Positions 18,723 to 24,642 of a DNA stretch of 63,192 bases are shown here, piece after piece (within the stretch, counting starts at the first letter, position 1; every line of letters starts with the position of its first letter). Location: the NCBI RefSeq assembly GCF_030973515.1, contig NZ_JARGZA010000018.1, positions 1-63,192 on the forward strand, given 5' to 3'. Source of the stretch: Jannaschia maritima. Lineage in GTDB: Bacteria > Pseudomonadota > Alphaproteobacteria > Rhodobacterales > Rhodobacteraceae. Both the position numbers and the translations under genes were made by a program. The notes below the pieces were generated by a model. The model ran no database searches. It was given only the letters and a program-made list of their open reading frames with translations, and was not told the origin of the DNA.

Positions 18723-20054
18723 TCAGCCTTCCGGCAGGGTCCCGCTTTCCACCCCCTCGGGCTGTCCGACAACGAGGAAGTGCAGATCTTCGGGGCGCAT
18801 GATGCGCCGCGCGACGCGCTGCACGTCGTCCAGCGTGACGGCGTTCACCCGGTCGTTGCGCGTCTCGATGTAGGTGGTGGGCCAGCCCTGCGACTGCATC
18901 CCCACGAGGATCCCCGCGATGGTGCCGTTGCCGTCGAAGCGCAGCGGATAGGCCCCGGTCAAGAAGGTCTTCGCCCGGTCCAGCTCCTCCTGCGTGATGC
19001 CGTTCTCGGCGATGTCGGCCCATTGGTCGCGCACCACCGCGATGGCCTCCGCGACGCGGTCGTTGCCGGAACTGAACTGCCCCAGATGGGACGCGCCGTA
19101 ATCGCGCGGCGACAGGTAGCTTCCGATCCCGTAGGTCAGGCCGCGCTCCTCGCGCACCTCGGTCATCAGGCGGGAATCGAAGCCGCGCCCTCCCAGAACG
19201 TGGTTCATGACGAAGGCGGGGAAGAAGTCGGGATCGTCCTGCATGATGCTGTCGTGCCCGAAGATCACGACCGATTGCGGCGTGGGGAACTCGGTGACGG
19301 TGACGCCGCCGTCCAGGGCATAGTCGGCCATCGGGATGTCCACCGCCTCGCCCTCGGGCAGACCGCCCAGCAGCTCGTCCAGCACTAGGCCCAACTCCTC
19401 GGCGGTGATGTCGCCCGTCGCGCCGACATGCATGCGCGACCTGACAAGCGTGCGCGCATGCGCGTCGACCAGGTCGTCCCGCGTCAACCCGGCGACGGAC
19501 TCGGTGGTGCCGTCCACGGGCCGGCCATAGGGATGGTCAGGATAGGCCAGCTCGGACGCCTTGCGCCCCGCGATCGCCGACGGGTCGTTGTTGTCCTGCT
19601 CGATCACGGCCAGGACCTGCTCGCGGACGCGCTCGATGGCGTCCGGATCGAAGCGGGGCCGGGTCAGCGCGTCGCGCAGCAGCGCCACGCCTTCGTCGCG
19701 GTTCTCCGTCAGGAAGGCGGCGCTGACGTTCACCCCGTCGTGATACGCGTCGAAGCCGAACCGCGCGGCCAGCCCTTCCACGGCTTCCGCGAAGGCCTGG
19801 GCGTCGCGCTCGGCAGCGCCCTCCTCCAGAAGGGCCACCATCAGGTTGGTGGCGCCCACGGCGTCGTCGGGATCCAGGACGGCCCCGCCGTCGAACCGGA
19901 TCTCCAGGGCGACGAAGGGAATGGACGATTCCTCGACCAGCCACGCCTCGATTCCGCCGGGGGAGGTCACCTCCTGTATCTCGACTGCGGCGTGGGCGCT
20001 GACGGGCAGGGCCAGGGCGGCCGCGGCCACCAGGATGCGAAGGGGATGGATCAT
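18723..20054 (-). CDS. M16-family peptidase-like subunit lacking the zinc motif
   Basis: 443 residues with a signal peptide (1-22, MIHPLRILVAAAALALPVSA then HA). It has two M16 halves (LEIRFDGGAVLDP, and a C-terminal Peptidase_M16_C with RGFDSRLMTEVREERGLTY). Where an active M16 enzyme has H-x-x-E-H it reads NLMVALLEEG, so zinc cannot be bound in the usual way. It is probably the non-catalytic partner of the next gene, as in paired alpha/beta processing peptidases. It overlaps the active subunit by 4 bases (ATGA). Confidence 0.9.
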   Translation of the reverse strand: MIHPLRILVAAAALALPVSAHAAVEIQEVTSPGGIEAWLVEESSIPFVALEIRFDGGAVLDPDDAVGATNLMVALLEEGAAERDAQAFAEAVEGLAARFGFDAYHDGVNVSAAFLTENRDEGVALLRDALTRPRFDPDAIERVREQVLAVIEQDNNDPSAIAGRKASELAYPDHPYGRPVDGTTESVAGLTRDDLVDAHARTLVRSRMHVGATGDITAEELGLVLDELLGGLPEGEAVDIPMADYALDGGVTVTEFPTPQSVVIFGHDSIMQDDPDFFPAFVMNHVLGGRGFDSRLMTEVREERGLTYGIGSYLSPRDYGASHLGQFSSGNDRVAEAIAVVRDQWADIAENGITQEELDRAKTFLTGAYPLRFDGNGTIAGILVGMQSQGWPTTYIETRNDRVNAVTLDDVQRVARRIMRPEDLHFLVVGQPEGVESGTLPEG

Positions 20055-21427
20055 TGCGTCGTCTCCTGCGGGTCGGCGGGCCGGGTCAAATACCCCGTGA
20101 CCGACGTTTCCGGCCGCAGGACGGCGCGGGCGGCGGCCACGATGTCGTCGCCCGTCACCGCGTCGAGGATGCCGGGCCAGGCGGCCACGTCGCCCACGCC
20201 CAACCCGGCGGTGACGGCGTTGCCATAGGTGCTCGCGCGCTCCTGGAGGCTATCGCGGCCGTAGATCTCGGCCGCGCGGACCTGCGCCTTGATGCGGTCC
20301 AGCTGCACGGAGTCCACCCCGTCGGCGATCAGCGTCTCGATCATACGGTCCATGTCGGCTTCCGCCTCCGCCAGGGTGCGGTCGGGCGTGGGCACGACCA
20401 GGAGGCCGAAGGTCGTGTCGTCGAGCGACGTGCCGTTGTAGAACGCGGAGGTGTAGAGCGCGGTGCCCTCCTCCTGCTCCAGCGTGCGGCCCATCAGCGA
20501 CGTCTGGGAGGAACCGCCCATCACGGCGGCCAGGAGCGTCAGCGCGGCCGCGTCCTCCTGCGCGCCGGGGTCGCGCTCGGGCGCCAGATAGGTCCGGATC
20601 ACATAGGGGTTCGACACCCGCGGGTCGGCGTATTCCAGCCGCCGGGGCGCCAGTTGCGGCGGCTCCTGCGGACGCATTCGCGGGCCGATCGCCGGGTTGG
20701 CGGGAACGGGGCCGTAGTGTCGGCGCGCTAGGGCCTCCACCTCCGCGGGGTCGACGTCGCCCGCGACGATCAGGGTCGCGTTGTTGGGGCCGTAATGGTC
20801 GGCGTAGAAGTCCAGCGCGTCCTGCAGGCCCAGCTCCCGGATCTCGGCCTCCCATCCGATGATGGGAATGGCATAGGGGTGGTTGAGGTACTGCATGGCC
20901 TGGCGCTGCTCGCCGAACAGGGCGCCCGGATTGCTGTCGGTGCGCTGCGCGCGCTCCTCCAGGACGACGTCGCGTTCGGTCAGCACCTCCCCCTCGTCGA
21001 GGCGCAGGTTCGCCATCCGGTCGGCCTCCATCTCCATCATCAGCCCCAGCCGGTCGGCGGCCACGCGCTGGAAGTAGCCGGTGTAGTCCTGGCTGGTGAA
21101 GGCGTTGTCCGTGCCCCCCTGCGCCGCCACCGTGGCGCTGAACTCGCCCGGTTCCAGCGTTTCGGTCCCCTTGAACATCAGATGTTCCAGGAAGTGCGCG
21201 ATGCCCGACCGTCCGGGCGGCTCGTCGGCGGCGCCGACATCGTACCAGACCATGTGGACGACGACGGGCGCGCGGTTGTCCTCGATCACGATGGCGTCCA
21301 GGCCGTTGTCCAACGTGAAGGTGGACACGGTGTCGTCCCCGAACGCGGCAGGATCCGCAGGGGCGTCCGTCTGCCCGGCGGCAGGCAGGGCGGCGGCCAG
21401 CAGGGCCGCGGTCAGAAGGCGTCGCAA
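20051..21427 (-). CDS. M16-family zinc metallopeptidase, active subunit
   Basis: 458 residues, exported (signal peptide 1-19). The inverted zinc motif H-x-x-E-H is at 78-82 (AHFLEHLMFKGT), with the downstream glutamate in LTERDVVLEER. The C-terminal M16_C half includes GSSQTSLMGRTLEQEEG. It presumably forms a periplasmic heterodimer with the zinc-less subunit encoded next. Substrate is unknown; relatives include PqqF-like and mitochondrial-type processing peptidases. It is divergent from the ECF sigma gene across 259 bases. Confidence 0.9.
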   Translation of the reverse strand: MRRLLTAALLAAALPAAGQTDAPADPAAFGDDTVSTFTLDNGLDAIVIEDNRAPVVVHMVWYDVGAADEPPGRSGIAHFLEHLMFKGTETLEPGEFSATVAAQGGTDNAFTSQDYTGYFQRVAADRLGLMMEMEADRMANLRLDEGEVLTERDVVLEERAQRTDSNPGALFGEQRQAMQYLNHPYAIPIIGWEAEIRELGLQDALDFYADHYGPNNATLIVAGDVDPAEVEALARRHYGPVPANPAIGPRMRPQEPPQLAPRRLEYADPRVSNPYVIRTYLAPERDPGAQEDAAALTLLAAVMGGSSQTSLMGRTLEQEEGTALYTSAFYNGTSLDDTTFGLLVVPTPDRTLAEAEADMDRMIETLIADGVDSVQLDRIKAQVRAAEIYGRDSLQERASTYGNAVTAGLGVGDVAAWPGILDAVTGDDIVAAARAVLRPETSVTGYLTRPADPQETTQ

Positions 21428-21564
21428 CGGCGTCTCCGTGGTTTCGAATGGGATCGCGTCTTCGTTAGGGCAGATAAGGCCGGGACACCCGGGTTTCCAA
21501 CGGGGGGGCGGTGCGCCTGCTGGTCACGGTCGCGTGGGCACGTCTGGGCGGGGGACCGCACGAA

Positions 21565-21594
21565 TTGTGTCAAGACGCCAGAACTGTTGATAAA
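21565..21594 (+). promoter_or_regulatory. Candidate promoter of the ECF sigma/ChrR operon
   Basis: TTGTGT at 21565-21570 and GATAAA at 21589-21594 with an 18-base spacer resemble a sigma-70-type promoter reading toward the sigma gene, giving a leader of about 85 bases. I do not find the TGATCC/TAAG pair of known RpoE-autoregulated promoters here. By eye only. Confidence 0.3.
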
Positions 21595-21686
21595 CTCCCG
21601 CGCATGCCCGATGCTGCCGGCGGGTGGACCGTGACCTCGTGGGGTATCGCAGGCGCGGTCATTGGGTTGCAGCGAAGGGGTGCGTG

Positions 21687-22280
21687 ATGTCCGATCATCA
21701 CGACGATGGCCATTGGAGCCGCCTTCTGGTGGCCGTTGGGGCGCATCGAGACCGGGACGCGTTCGAATCGCTGTTCGTCCAGTTCGGGCCGAGGGTGAAG
21801 ATGTTCCTGCTCCGCACCGGCTTGACGGAGGGGGCGGCCGAGGATTGCATGCAGGACGTCATGGTCGCGATGTGGCGCAAGGCGCATCTGTACGACCCGG
21901 GGCGGGCGCACGTGGCGACGTGGCTGTTCACCATCGCGCGCAACCGCAAGATCGACCTGATCCGCCGGATCCGGCGCCCCGAGCCGGAGGATCTGCCCTG
22001 GGGGCCGGAACCCGATCCGGCGCAGGCCGACGTCATGGCCATGCAGGAGGACAGTCGCCGTCTGGCCGACGCCGTCGCGCAGCTGCCCCCCGCCCAGCGG
22101 GAGCTGATCGAGCACGCGTTCTATGGCGAGCTGACCCATTCCGAGATCGCCGCCACGACCGGTCTGCCGCTCGGGACGATCAAGTCGCGGATCCGGCTGG
22201 CCATCGATCGTCTCCGGTATGCCATGGAATCCGAGATCGCCCACGCTACGTCACGACGCGGAGACGAGAACGCGGGGTAA
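21687..22280 (+). CDS. rpoE: ECF RNA polymerase sigma factor (RpoE/ECF11-like)
   Basis: 197 residues. Region 2 runs from FESLFVQFGPRVKMFLLRTG to ATWLFTIARNRKIDLIRR, and region 4 is LPPAQRELIEHAFYGELTHS, then IAATTGLPLGTIKSRIRLAI. It resembles the Rhodobacter RpoE that, with ChrR, runs the singlet-oxygen response. The ATG at 21687 follows a GAAGGGG site; an upstream in-frame start at 21624 adds non-conserved residues. Seven bases separate it from its anti-sigma gene. Given the altered ChrR, its inducing signal may not be singlet oxygen. Confidence 0.9.
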   Translation: MSDHHDDGHWSRLLVAVGAHRDRDAFESLFVQFGPRVKMFLLRTGLTEGAAEDCMQDVMVAMWRKAHLYDPGRAHVATWLFTIARNRKIDLIRRIRRPEPEDLPWGPEPDPAQADVMAMQEDSRRLADAVAQLPPAQRELIEHAFYGELTHSEIAATTGLPLGTIKSRIRLAIDRLRYAMESEIAHATSRRGDENAG

Positions 22281-22287
22281 GCGTGCG

Positions 22288-22935
22288 ATGTCCGTGACCC
22301 ATCCGATCGGCGACGAGATCCTGCTGGGCTATGCCGCCGGCGGATTGCCGGCCGTCTATGACCTGCTGGCCGCCTGCGCGGTGTCGTTGGACGACGACGC
22401 GCGCGTGCGCTTGGGCGTGTTCGAGGCGATGGGCGGGGCGCTTCTGGCGCGCGAGCAGATCGCCCCCCTGCGCCACGACAGCTTCGAGGGGGTGTTGCGG
22501 CGCATCGGCGGCCTTCCCCCGGAGGAAACGGTGGATCCCGGACGCAAGGTGCCCATGCCCGACGCCGTCCTACCCCGGCCGCTGCGCGAGCGTCTGGGCG
22601 GGGATGCGGCCGATCTGCTTTGGACCTCCTGCGGTCTGGGACGCCGGGAGGTGGCCCTGGACCATGACGTCGACGGGGGGGGTTGCCTGATGGCGATCCC
22701 CGGGGGCGTGGTCGTGCCCGCCGTGGACGAGGACCGCACGGCGCTGGTGCTGCAGGGCGGGTTCCGCATCGGGGCGGATCGCTATGGTCGCGGCGACGTG
22801 GTCGCCCTGCGCGACCCGGACCACCGCGCCGTGGCGGAGGACGGACCCGACTGCATCTGCCTGGTGGTCGGTGACGGTTCCGCACCCATTCCGTCCCTGG
22901 GTCGCCGCCTGCGGGACCGCCTGCTGGCGGGCTAG
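22288..22935 (+). CDS. chrR: ChrR-like cupin anti-sigma factor with missing zinc ligands
   Basis: 215 residues: an N-terminal anti-sigma domain (ILLGYAAGGLPAVYDLLAAC, then LGVFEAMGGALL) and a C-terminal cupin (ALVLQGGFRIGADRYGRGDV, DCICLVVGD). In R. sphaeroides ChrR the anti-sigma zinc is held by His6, His31, Cys35 and Cys38. The matching residues here are Pro6, Ala31, Asp35 and Ala38, with no gap in the alignment. In the cupin, the His141/His143/Glu147 stretch is replaced by VPAVDEDRTAL, leaving only a His equivalent to His177. Family and partner are clear from the operon; how it senses or even folds without zinc is not. Confidence 0.85.
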   Translation: MSVTHPIGDEILLGYAAGGLPAVYDLLAACAVSLDDDARVRLGVFEAMGGALLAREQIAPLRHDSFEGVLRRIGGLPPEETVDPGRKVPMPDAVLPRPLRERLGGDAADLLWTSCGLGRREVALDHDVDGGGCLMAIPGGVVVPAVDEDRTALVLQGGFRIGADRYGRGDVVALRDPDHRAVAEDGPDCICLVVGDGSAPIPSLGRRLRDRLLAG

Positions 22936-23052
22936 GGGCGCGGCCGGTTCGGCACGCGGGCGCCTGCGGCGATCTCGCTCCCGGCTACCATGCAACCGAA
23001 TCGACCCCGAACCGCGTTCGCCTGGGTCCCCCCGGCCCTGGAGCGCCCCGCG

Positions 23053-24642
23053 ATGACCCCCGCACCCATCGACCCCCGCGACCACGACCTCCTGTTCGGT
23101 CGCGATGCATTGAAGCCCGGCGACGCCGTCGTGCACTTCGAGCATGGCCTCGCCCGTTACGACGGCATCGAACGGTTGGAGGTGGACGGTGCCGTGCACG
23201 AGCTGACGGCGCTGACCTATCGCGACGACGGACGGCTGAAGGTGCCTGCGCGGGAAGGGCGGGATTTCTGGGCCTATGGCGCCCCCGCGGCGGAGGTGAC
23301 GCTTGACCGGCTGAAGGCAGGCGACTGGATCCGGCATCGCGATGCGATGATCGCCGAGCTGCGCGAGGCGGTGGACGCGCTGATGGCCGAGGATCGGGCG
23401 CGGCGGTCCCATGAGGCGCATCCGGTTCCCCGCGACCCCGATGGCCTGCAGGCCGTGGTCGACGGCTTCCGGTTCGAGCCGACGGAGGATCAGGTCCGCG
23501 CGATCGAGGCCGTGCTGGACGACATGGCGCAAGACGTGCCCATGGATCGCCTGCTGATCGGGGACGTGGGCTTCGGCAAGACGGAGGTGGCCCTGCGCGC
23601 CCTCGCCGCCACCGCCCTGTCCGGACGCCAGGCGCTGCTGGCCGCCCCCACCACCGTCCTGGCGCGTCAGCATTTCGACACGCTGTCCCGGCGGTTGGGG
23701 GCCGCGGGGATAGCGGTCGTGGAACTGTCGCGCTTGACGGACGACCGGGACGCCGCCCTCGCCGCCATCGCGGACGGCACGGCGCAGGTGATCGTGGGCA
23801 CCACCGCCGTGCTGTCGGACGACGTGTTGTTCGATGGCCTGGGTCTGGTCGTGATCGACGAGGAGCAGCGCCTGGGCCGGGACGACAAGCAGGCGCTGCG
23901 CGCTCTGTGCCCCGGTTGCCACGTGCTGTCGATGACCGCCACGCCGATCCCACGGTCGCTGGCGGCCGCCGAGATCGGGCTGGTGGCCGTGTCGGTCCTG
24001 GCGACGCCGCCCCGTGCGCGCAAGGCCACCGAGACGACGGTGCGCACCACCTGCCTGGACGCCCTGCGCGAGGCCGTGGCGGTCGAGCGGGACCGTGGGG
24101 GACAGGTCTTCGTCGTGTGCCCTCGGATCGAGGGGCTGGCGGACGTGGAGGCGGCCCTGCGGGACGGGCTCGACGCGGAAGCGCTGACCGTGGTGCATGG
24201 CCAGTTGCCAGAGGACGAGTTGGAGGAGCGGATGCTGCGCTTCGCCCGCGGCGAGGTGGAGGTGCTGGTGTCCACGACCATCGTGGAGTCGGGCATCGAC
24301 GTGCCGCGCGCGAACGCGATGATCGTGCTGGACGCCGATCGCTTCGGCTTGGCCCAGTTGCACCAATTGCGGGGCCGCATCGGGCGGGGGGACGTGGCCG
24401 CCGCGATGCTCCTGATGTCTGATGCGGACGAGGACGCCGTCGCCCGGCTGGACGCGTTCGCCGCATGCGACGAGATCGGCGCGGGCTTCCGCATCGCGCG
24501 CATGGATCGCGACCACCGGGGGTGGGGCGAGATCGACGGCGAGGCGCAGTCGGGGCATCAATCCCGGCTTGGGATAGGTCTCTACCGCCACCTGATCCGG
24601 CAGCACGCGCTGGGTCCGGTGGACGATGCCGTCGCGGCCTAG
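23053..24642 (+). CDS. Shortened Mfd-like protein: RNAP-interaction domain plus translocase only
   Basis: 529 residues that align with the middle of transcription-repair coupling factor Mfd. A CarD/RID domain spans about 10-75 (KPGDAVVHFEHGLARYDGIE, LTYRDDGRLKVP). A superfamily 2 translocase follows with Walker A LLIGDVGFGKTEVA, DEEQRLG, SMTATPIPRSLA, STTIVESGIDVPRANA and FGLAQLHQLRGRIGRG. The translocation-in-RecG-type segment GEIDGEAQSG is the end. The UvrB-like/UvrA-binding N-terminal half and C-terminal domain 7 of the usual 1150-residue Mfd are absent. ATG 23053 (GGAG eight bases before) is favoured over ATG 22990. It lies 117 bases downstream of chrR, and its TAG shares a CTAG with the convergent creA. 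Confidence 0.85.
   Translation: MTPAPIDPRDHDLLFGRDALKPGDAVVHFEHGLARYDGIERLEVDGAVHELTALTYRDDGRLKVPAREGRDFWAYGAPAAEVTLDRLKAGDWIRHRDAMIAELREAVDALMAEDRARRSHEAHPVPRDPDGLQAVVDGFRFEPTEDQVRAIEAVLDDMAQDVPMDRLLIGDVGFGKTEVALRALAATALSGRQALLAAPTTVLARQHFDTLSRRLGAAGIAVVELSRLTDDRDAALAAIADGTAQVIVGTTAVLSDDVLFDGLGLVVIDEEQRLGRDDKQALRALCPGCHVLSMTATPIPRSLAAAEIGLVAVSVLATPPRARKATETTVRTTCLDALREAVAVERDRGGQVFVVCPRIEGLADVEAALRDGLDAEALTVVHGQLPEDELEERMLRFARGEVEVLVSTTIVESGIDVPRANAMIVLDADRFGLAQLHQLRGRIGRGDVAAAMLLMSDADEDAVARLDAFAACDEIGAGFRIARMDRDHRGWGEIDGEAQSGHQSRLGIGLYRHLIRQHALGPVDDAVAA

Follow-up and report, generated by a model that had tools for sequence, protein, structure and literature searches.

Results

The rpoE-chrR locus of the window

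The window analysed here (the whole stretch of 63,192 nucleotides from contig NZ_JARGZA010000018.1 of the Jannaschia maritima assembly GCF_030973515.1) carries on its forward strand a chrR-like gene for a 215-residue anti-sigma factor in which both metal sites are lost (22288..22935). Only 7 bases separate this gene from that of its partner, a 197-residue extracytoplasmic function (ECF) sigma factor resembling RpoE/sigmaE (21687..22280, forward strand). Pfam Sigma70_r2 and Sigma70_r4 both score above cut-off in the latter, which has regions 2 and 4 of an ECF sigma factor. The closest solved relative of the anti-sigma protein in a phmmer search is ChrR of Rhodobacter sphaeroides (PDB 2z2s_B; E 3.4e-25), with which residues 1-52, the core of the anti-sigma domain (ASD; 22288..22443, forward strand, as are all residues listed below), align without gaps. 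In this alignment the zinc ligands His6, His31, Cys35 and Cys38 of R. sphaeroides ChrR are replaced by Pro6 (22303..22305), Ala31 (22378..22380), Asp35 (22390..22392) and Ala38 (22399..22401). The fast-evolving cupin-like domain (approximately residues 100-192; 22585..22863) has changed as well: Val146, Glu148 and Arg150 (22723..22737) occupy the positions of cupin ligands His141, His143 and Glu147, with a two-residue deletion alongside, and His179 (22822..22824), the equivalent of His177, is the sole cupin ligand kept. The alignments bear out the residue assignments of a first-pass annotation made from the DNA letters. Its heading, that all known zinc ligands are replaced, is accurate for the four ASD ligands but overstated for the cupin, where one ligand survives.

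The protein shares common descent with the ChrR family, the two-domain architecture and the adjoining ECF sigma gene. Its AlphaFold model has the helical fold of a class I ASD, agrees with the fold of 2z2s_B and shows block means of 87-94 for the model confidence score pLDDT over residues 1-50. Residue 35 sits between helices 2 and 3 in AlphaFold models (DSSP: 22-34 and 36-55), and the models point to an N-cap position of helix 3 for Asp35 rather than to the metal-replacing salt bridge raised by the first-pass annotation. The zinc-binding anti-sigma (ZAS) motif, H-x3-C-x2-C with a further His or Cys ligand at the N-terminus, is absent (P6, A31, D35, A38), and one of the four cupin metal ligands (H141, H143, E147, H177) is present. 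Against TIGR02451, the NCBI family model for ChrR, the protein scores 74.7 bits, under the curated cut-off of 124.5, the J. aquimarina protein scoring 186.1; Pfam returns no family at E <= 1, the J. aquimarina protein matching Cupin_7. Judged by sequence, the protein is a descendant of ChrR that is not a ZAS protein by motif and falls under the ChrR family cut-off.

The first-pass annotation had allowed for His and Cys ligands elsewhere in the protein. A misplaced alignment concealing such ligands was ruled out by the alignments and by a motif search of the whole protein, in which no HxxxCxxC, CxxC or HxH was found. The same search bears on the idea that zinc is still bound through other residues. 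Window ChrR does contain His5, Cys30, His63, Cys115, His126, Cys133, His179, Cys189 and Cys191 (the last two corresponding to C187 and C189 of R. sphaeroides ChrR in the alignment), and His5 occurs throughout the genus rows. It is, however, the only one of these residues within positions 1-52 that the other genus rows share, their counterpart of Cys30 being Thr or Ser. With no motif to accommodate the metal, such an alternative site is very improbable. A local frameshift as the source of the cupin change was ruled out because no HxH motif occurs in either other forward frame of 22650-22800; the open reading frame (22288-22935) is open throughout, without stops. A search of the window genome for a second, normal ChrR returned only 22288-22935 at E <= 1.

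Loss of the zinc ligands in all Jannaschia ChrR sequences examined

Our genus sample comprised 20 Jannaschia genomes, the window genome (G000) included. chrR was found in 12 of them, and the sigma factor in the same 12. In every one of the 12 all four zinc-ligand positions are replaced (by P or E, A or T, D, and A, respectively), the other proteins carrying AVSLDD[DE]AR or a close variant at the N-terminus. The replacement is not a chance event, being common to all genus genomes with the gene. Eleven of the 12 keep all four cupin ligands (HHEH), the window genome being the exception; a 13th Jannaschia ChrR, from J. formosa (outside the 20), combines PADA at the zinc positions with an HHEH cupin. 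Since the other 11 genomes keep their cupin ligands, the two sites were lost separately, in two events: the ASD zinc site disappeared genus-wide, and the cupin site was lost later, in the window species. The first-pass annotation had proposed a metal-free or differently sensing pair; both parts of the proposal find support, but as two losses and not as one event or one mechanism. The breadth of the change also speaks to the idea that the unusual protein is an artefact of sequencing or assembly. The window species is represented by a single assembly, but a zinc-site change found in 12 genomes, and a cupin change that is spread along the domain and is not a frameshift, make such an error extremely improbable. 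Reaction-centre genes are present in 11 of the 12 genomes with chrR versus 3 of the 8 without it (Fisher p 0.018, uncorrected for kinship).

The survey was then widened to 143 loci (30 best hits of the first search, 23 from a scan of named genomes, 30 best family hits and 60 picked from the first-search and family-search lists, neither at random nor completely), a set in which close relatives and high-scoring hits are over-represented. All counts exclude L031, a weak second match (residues 65-142) in G009. Removal of 14 repeats left 129 distinct ChrR sequences; the alignment is uncertain for L054, L177 and other distant rows. The full zinc set, HHCC, is present in 98 of the 129; the remaining 31 are without it, and 25 of these have neither cysteine. 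HHEH is kept in 30 of the 31, window ChrR again being the exception, so that loss of cupin ligands is confined to 1 of 129 sequences, all four being kept in the other 128. The spread of the zinc-free variant across Rhodobacterales, a matter raised by the first-pass annotation, is genus-wide in Jannaschia and partial in sister taxa, where intermediate sites occur: HHNA in Thalassobacter stenotrophicus, THNA in a Roseicyclus metagenome-assembled genome (MAG), and SHCA and HHSA in Rhodobacteraceae MAGs.

A quick tree, built with the four zinc-ligand columns excluded, leaves 67 of 127 inner branches open. In it, the 13 Jannaschia rows and Thalassobacter group together (support 97) and partly eroded rows neighbour this group (supports 88 and 86). 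The resulting fork of 21 rows includes one HHCC row (L153). Over the tree, changes between full and eroded zinc sites number nine at minimum, several of them on weak or long branches. None of the 20 eroded rows of the fork (all but L153) keeps Cys38 (Ala 19, Ser 1); at the Cys35 position 13 have Asp, 4 Ser, 2 Asn and 1 Cys, and the 13 Jannaschia rows are the only ones without His31. From this distribution we infer that Cys38 was lost first and His31 last. On the evidence of these sequences, the ChrR zinc site looks replaceable.

Outside the Jannaschia group, at least one zinc ligand is missing, and every cupin ligand is kept, in the ChrR-like proteins L047, L020, L149, L166, L169, L175, L179, L181 and L183; the N-terminal alignment is less sure in some distant rows of this set.

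Relaxed constraint on the cupin domain

Sequence constraint was assessed from the mean identity of each protein to its counterparts in the other 11 chrR-bearing Jannaschia genomes. The sigma factor of the window species (73.8%) lies within the range of the others (72.1-78.1), and its ASD core (69.4%) lies slightly under theirs (70.8-77.9). The cupin domain, at 41.3%, falls far from the 62.5-68.6 of the others, G013 being at 53.1. The ratio of codon position 2 to codon position 3 differences follows the same order: in the cupin it is 0.72 for the window species, 0.53 for G013 and 0.34-0.45 for the other ten, and in the ASD core it is 0.34 versus 0.17-0.33. In the quick tree the end branch of window ChrR measures 1.14 against a median of 0.34. 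On the sequence comparison, relaxed constraint is shown for the cupin domain in the window species, and constraint is normal for the sigma factor and nearly so for the ASD core.

These data also bear on the proposal that losing the metal was adaptive and the cupin now responds to a different signal. The codon position pattern fits relaxed constraint, and any new conserved site would have to be judged from a single sequence. We consider such retuning improbable.

The sigmaE promoter and its targets

The intergenic segment upstream of the sigma gene (21428..21686) is without a recognisable sigmaE autopromoter: the best match to TGATCC-N16-CGTAA, the autoregulatory site of ECF11-type sigma genes, has 3 mismatches. 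A sigma-70-type site was looked for in the same segment and none was found. Outside the genus, 29 of 31 loci (a few repeats included, L054 left out of the scan) have the motif upstream of rpoE, either exact or with a single mismatch. The 12 genus genomes divide into five with an exact site, four with one mismatch, one with two mismatches, and the window species and G013, where no site is nearer than three mismatches.

A search of the 20 Jannaschia genomes with a spacing of N16-17 gave 43 exact hits, 30 read as loci. Fourteen of the 21 such loci in chrR genomes, and none of the nine in genomes without chrR, lie before rpoE or regulon-type genes (Fisher p 0.0009, uncorrected for kinship). The kinds of regulon gene follow the R. 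sphaeroides list in PMC7074977. The 14 comprise rpoH-type sigma genes (4), RSP_1091-like flavin oxidase genes (3), folE2 (3), rpoE (2) and fasciclin genes (2); targets were named by eye, one example each of the rpoH type, flavin oxidase, fasciclin and folE2 being confirmed. In the window genome an exact site starts 84 bases before an rpoH-type gene, a sigma-32 gene by NCBIfam (NF005693) that we read as rpoH2. Exact hits range from 0 to 6 per Jannaschia genome. The idea of a shrunken sigmaE regulon in the window genome was dropped as a firm claim, because its single exact hit lies inside this range; a looser motif gives 7 hits there versus 3 in a reversed control.

Partner genes and neighbourhood

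Ten of the 11 other chrR-bearing congeners keep both the RSP_1091- and RSP_1090-like genes and a promoter-like site (<=2 mismatches). At the place where these ten have the RSP_1091-like gene, the window has a gene for an M16 peptidase on the reverse strand (20051..21427; Pfam Peptidase_M16 and M16_C). Neither an RSP_1091-like oxidase gene nor a DUF1365 (RSP_1090-like) gene was found in the window genome. Among the 12 chrR-bearing genomes only this one and G013 are without them, and the same two are those without a recognisable autopromoter. Separate losses are suggested by the different neighbours upstream of rpoE, M16 peptidases in the window and a pfkB-family kinase in G013. Relocation of the operon was ruled out, a creA-like gene, a pseudouridine synthase gene and a peroxiredoxin gene lying downstream as in relatives.

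The wider family was sampled with one genome per genus (248 genomes, taken as the same draw for the ChrR and DUF1365 searches). ChrR is present in 203 and DUF1365 in 216, and only three genomes have ChrR without DUF1365: the window genome, G237 and G173. The two genes strongly co-occur, DUF1365 being found in 200 of the 203 genomes with ChrR versus 16 of the 45 others.

In four congeners without rpoE-chrR (L087-L090: G001, G004, G014 and G002), RSP_1091/1090-like genes stand near a creA-like gene, which adjoins them directly in G001 and G004 and lies one gene away in G014 and G002. In all four, rpoE-chrR may once have stood between these genes and been deleted.

Directly 3' of chrR in the window is a gene for a 550-residue Mfd-like protein (22990-24642, forward strand) with CarD/TRCF and helicase domains, which covers only positions 309-813 of the Mfd model; a full-length Mfd is also encoded elsewhere in the genome. 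The Mfd-like gene separates chrR from the creA-like gene, two genes that are 15 bases apart in J. aquimarina.

Discussion

We think it probable that the locus encodes a descendant of ChrR that binds its sigma factor with no metal involved and whose singlet-oxygen sensor is lost. Window ChrR most likely still holds the sigma factor, since constraint on the latter is normal, that on the ASD core is nearly so, and an exact sigmaE-type site precedes an rpoH-type gene; it would no longer sense singlet oxygen through its cupin. For the zinc-free clade as a whole, a metal-free ASD is supported as the simplest interpretation: across the genus the form without zinc ligands is accompanied by the sigma factor, by sigmaE-type sites before known target genes and, in 10 of 12 genomes, by an autopromoter-like site. 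In line with metal-free binding, an RsrA variant is reported to have remained attached to its sigma factor once its zinc was lost (PMC4960319). For the window species, the relaxed constraint on the cupin domain supports a changed or lost sensing role.

Several observations weigh against this interpretation. In R. sphaeroides ChrR, zinc binding is reported to be required for inhibition of sigmaE (PMC6852236, PMC6432622). The two-mismatch J. aquimarina site is weak evidence of a promoter. The genus can do without the rpoE-chrR pair, which is absent from 8 of the 20 Jannaschia genomes. The ASD core of the window species diverges more than that of any other of the 12 genomes, though by a small margin, which makes a weak decay of the whole gene possible. 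Finally, G013, without RSP_1090/1091-like genes, keeps HHEH, and in G237, without DUF1365, the autopromoter is exact and ChrR carries both full ligand sets (HHCC/HHEH). Loss of the RSP_1090/1091-like genes as the cause of the cupin-site loss is weakened by these two genomes, which keep the cupin ligands; partner-gene loss is thus rare, accompanies cupin drift in the genus and is insufficient for ligand loss.

The pair's patchy distribution makes decay of the whole pair the main rival: with partner genes and autopromoter lost and an anti-sigma factor that binds poorly, the module would be on its way out. The four congeners with RSP_1091/1090-like genes near a creA-like gene and no pair, the unrecognisable autopromoter and the very long branch of window ChrR all fit such a course. 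Yet the frame is free of stops, the sigma factor has normal identity and the ASD core only slightly less than its range, the codon position ratio of the core shows constraint, and the site before the rpoH-type gene is exact. On balance we regard decay as unlikely. The first-pass annotation had taken the intact operon as a sign that the pair is under selection, a conclusion that suits the sigma factor and the ASD core but neither the cupin domain nor the autopromoter.

Under the reading that we favour, a metal-free anti-sigma factor with its sensor lost, the locus would have evolved as follows. As the sequences show, the ASD zinc site eroded stepwise across the genus, helix packing probably taking its place: Asp, Asn or Ser at position 35 would cap helix 3, and small residues stand where Cys38 and His31 were. 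In the window species only, the cupin metal site was then lost and the cupin left to drift under relaxed constraint, in a genome where the RSP_1090/1091-like genes are absent and the autopromoter is unrecognisable (both also the case in G013). The ASD would still sequester sigma as a metal-free buffer, and a basal amount of unbound sigma, its level fixed by the ratio in which the two proteins are expressed or by general ChrR turnover, would feed the rpoH-type gene. Such a pair would run low and unamplified, with no self-amplification and no singlet-oxygen response through the cupin.

The ChrR cupin is reported to be required for the singlet-oxygen response, and a 2019 review states that the exact role of the ASD zinc in that response is not known (PMC6852236); in a peptide study, how rapidly the zinc site reacts with singlet oxygen was counted in favour of its acting as a sensor (PMC6432622). 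In R. sphaeroides, breakdown of ChrR under singlet oxygen depends on RSP_1090, full activation depends on RSP_1090 and RSP_1091, and loss of RSP_1090 left the organic peroxide response unimpaired (PMC3818230). Whether the ChrR zinc finger is dispensable for the whole response, that of Jannaschia RpoE being complete and sensed by the cupin, while window ChrR is metal-less and only buffers sigma, strikes us as an evenly balanced question. If so, evolution would have separated inhibition from sensing. The zinc finger of ChrR is a proposed singlet-oxygen-reactive site, and Jannaschia offers a ready natural test of its role: chrR genomes that mostly carry photosynthetic reaction-centre genes, with the circuit kept and the zinc site gone. 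The window species is the reverse case, with the cupin site lost, and with the two together, inhibition and sensing could be probed separately using natural proteins instead of point mutants.

The surprise is limited, since structural zinc in ASDs and zinc-free forms within one group are already in print (PMC7406223). In the excerpts of open-access literature consulted, we found no description of zinc-free ChrR proteins, and the only mention found of ChrR in Jannaschia concerns gene order in J. rubra.

Window ChrR has the gene order (sigma, then anti-sigma), the ASD and cupin fold, the ungapped N-terminus and the DCICL motif of R. sphaeroides (Cereibacter) ChrR (PDB 2z2s/2q1z), but 4 of 4 zinc ligands and 3 of 4 cupin ligands are replaced, no autopromoter is recognisable and RSP_1090/1091-like genes are absent from the genome. 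With other Jannaschia ChrR proteins (J. aquimarina, J. seohaensis and others) it shares the zinc-free N-terminus, the sigma factor and the creA-like gene downstream, and differs from them in not having kept the HHEH cupin ligands. The rpoE-chrR-type locus of R. capsulatus (RCAP_rcc00698/00699) also stands in a genome without RSP_1087-1091 homologues; however, its anti-sigma protein is reported to be 13% identical to ChrR and nearer SigK/RskA (PMC7074977), whereas the ChrR descent of the window protein is plain. RseA of Escherichia coli and RskA of Mycobacterium tuberculosis likewise have an anti-sigma fold without zinc (PMC6852236, PMC7406223). These belong to other anti-sigma groups, whereas the window protein lost its zinc site inside the cupin-bearing ChrR lineage.
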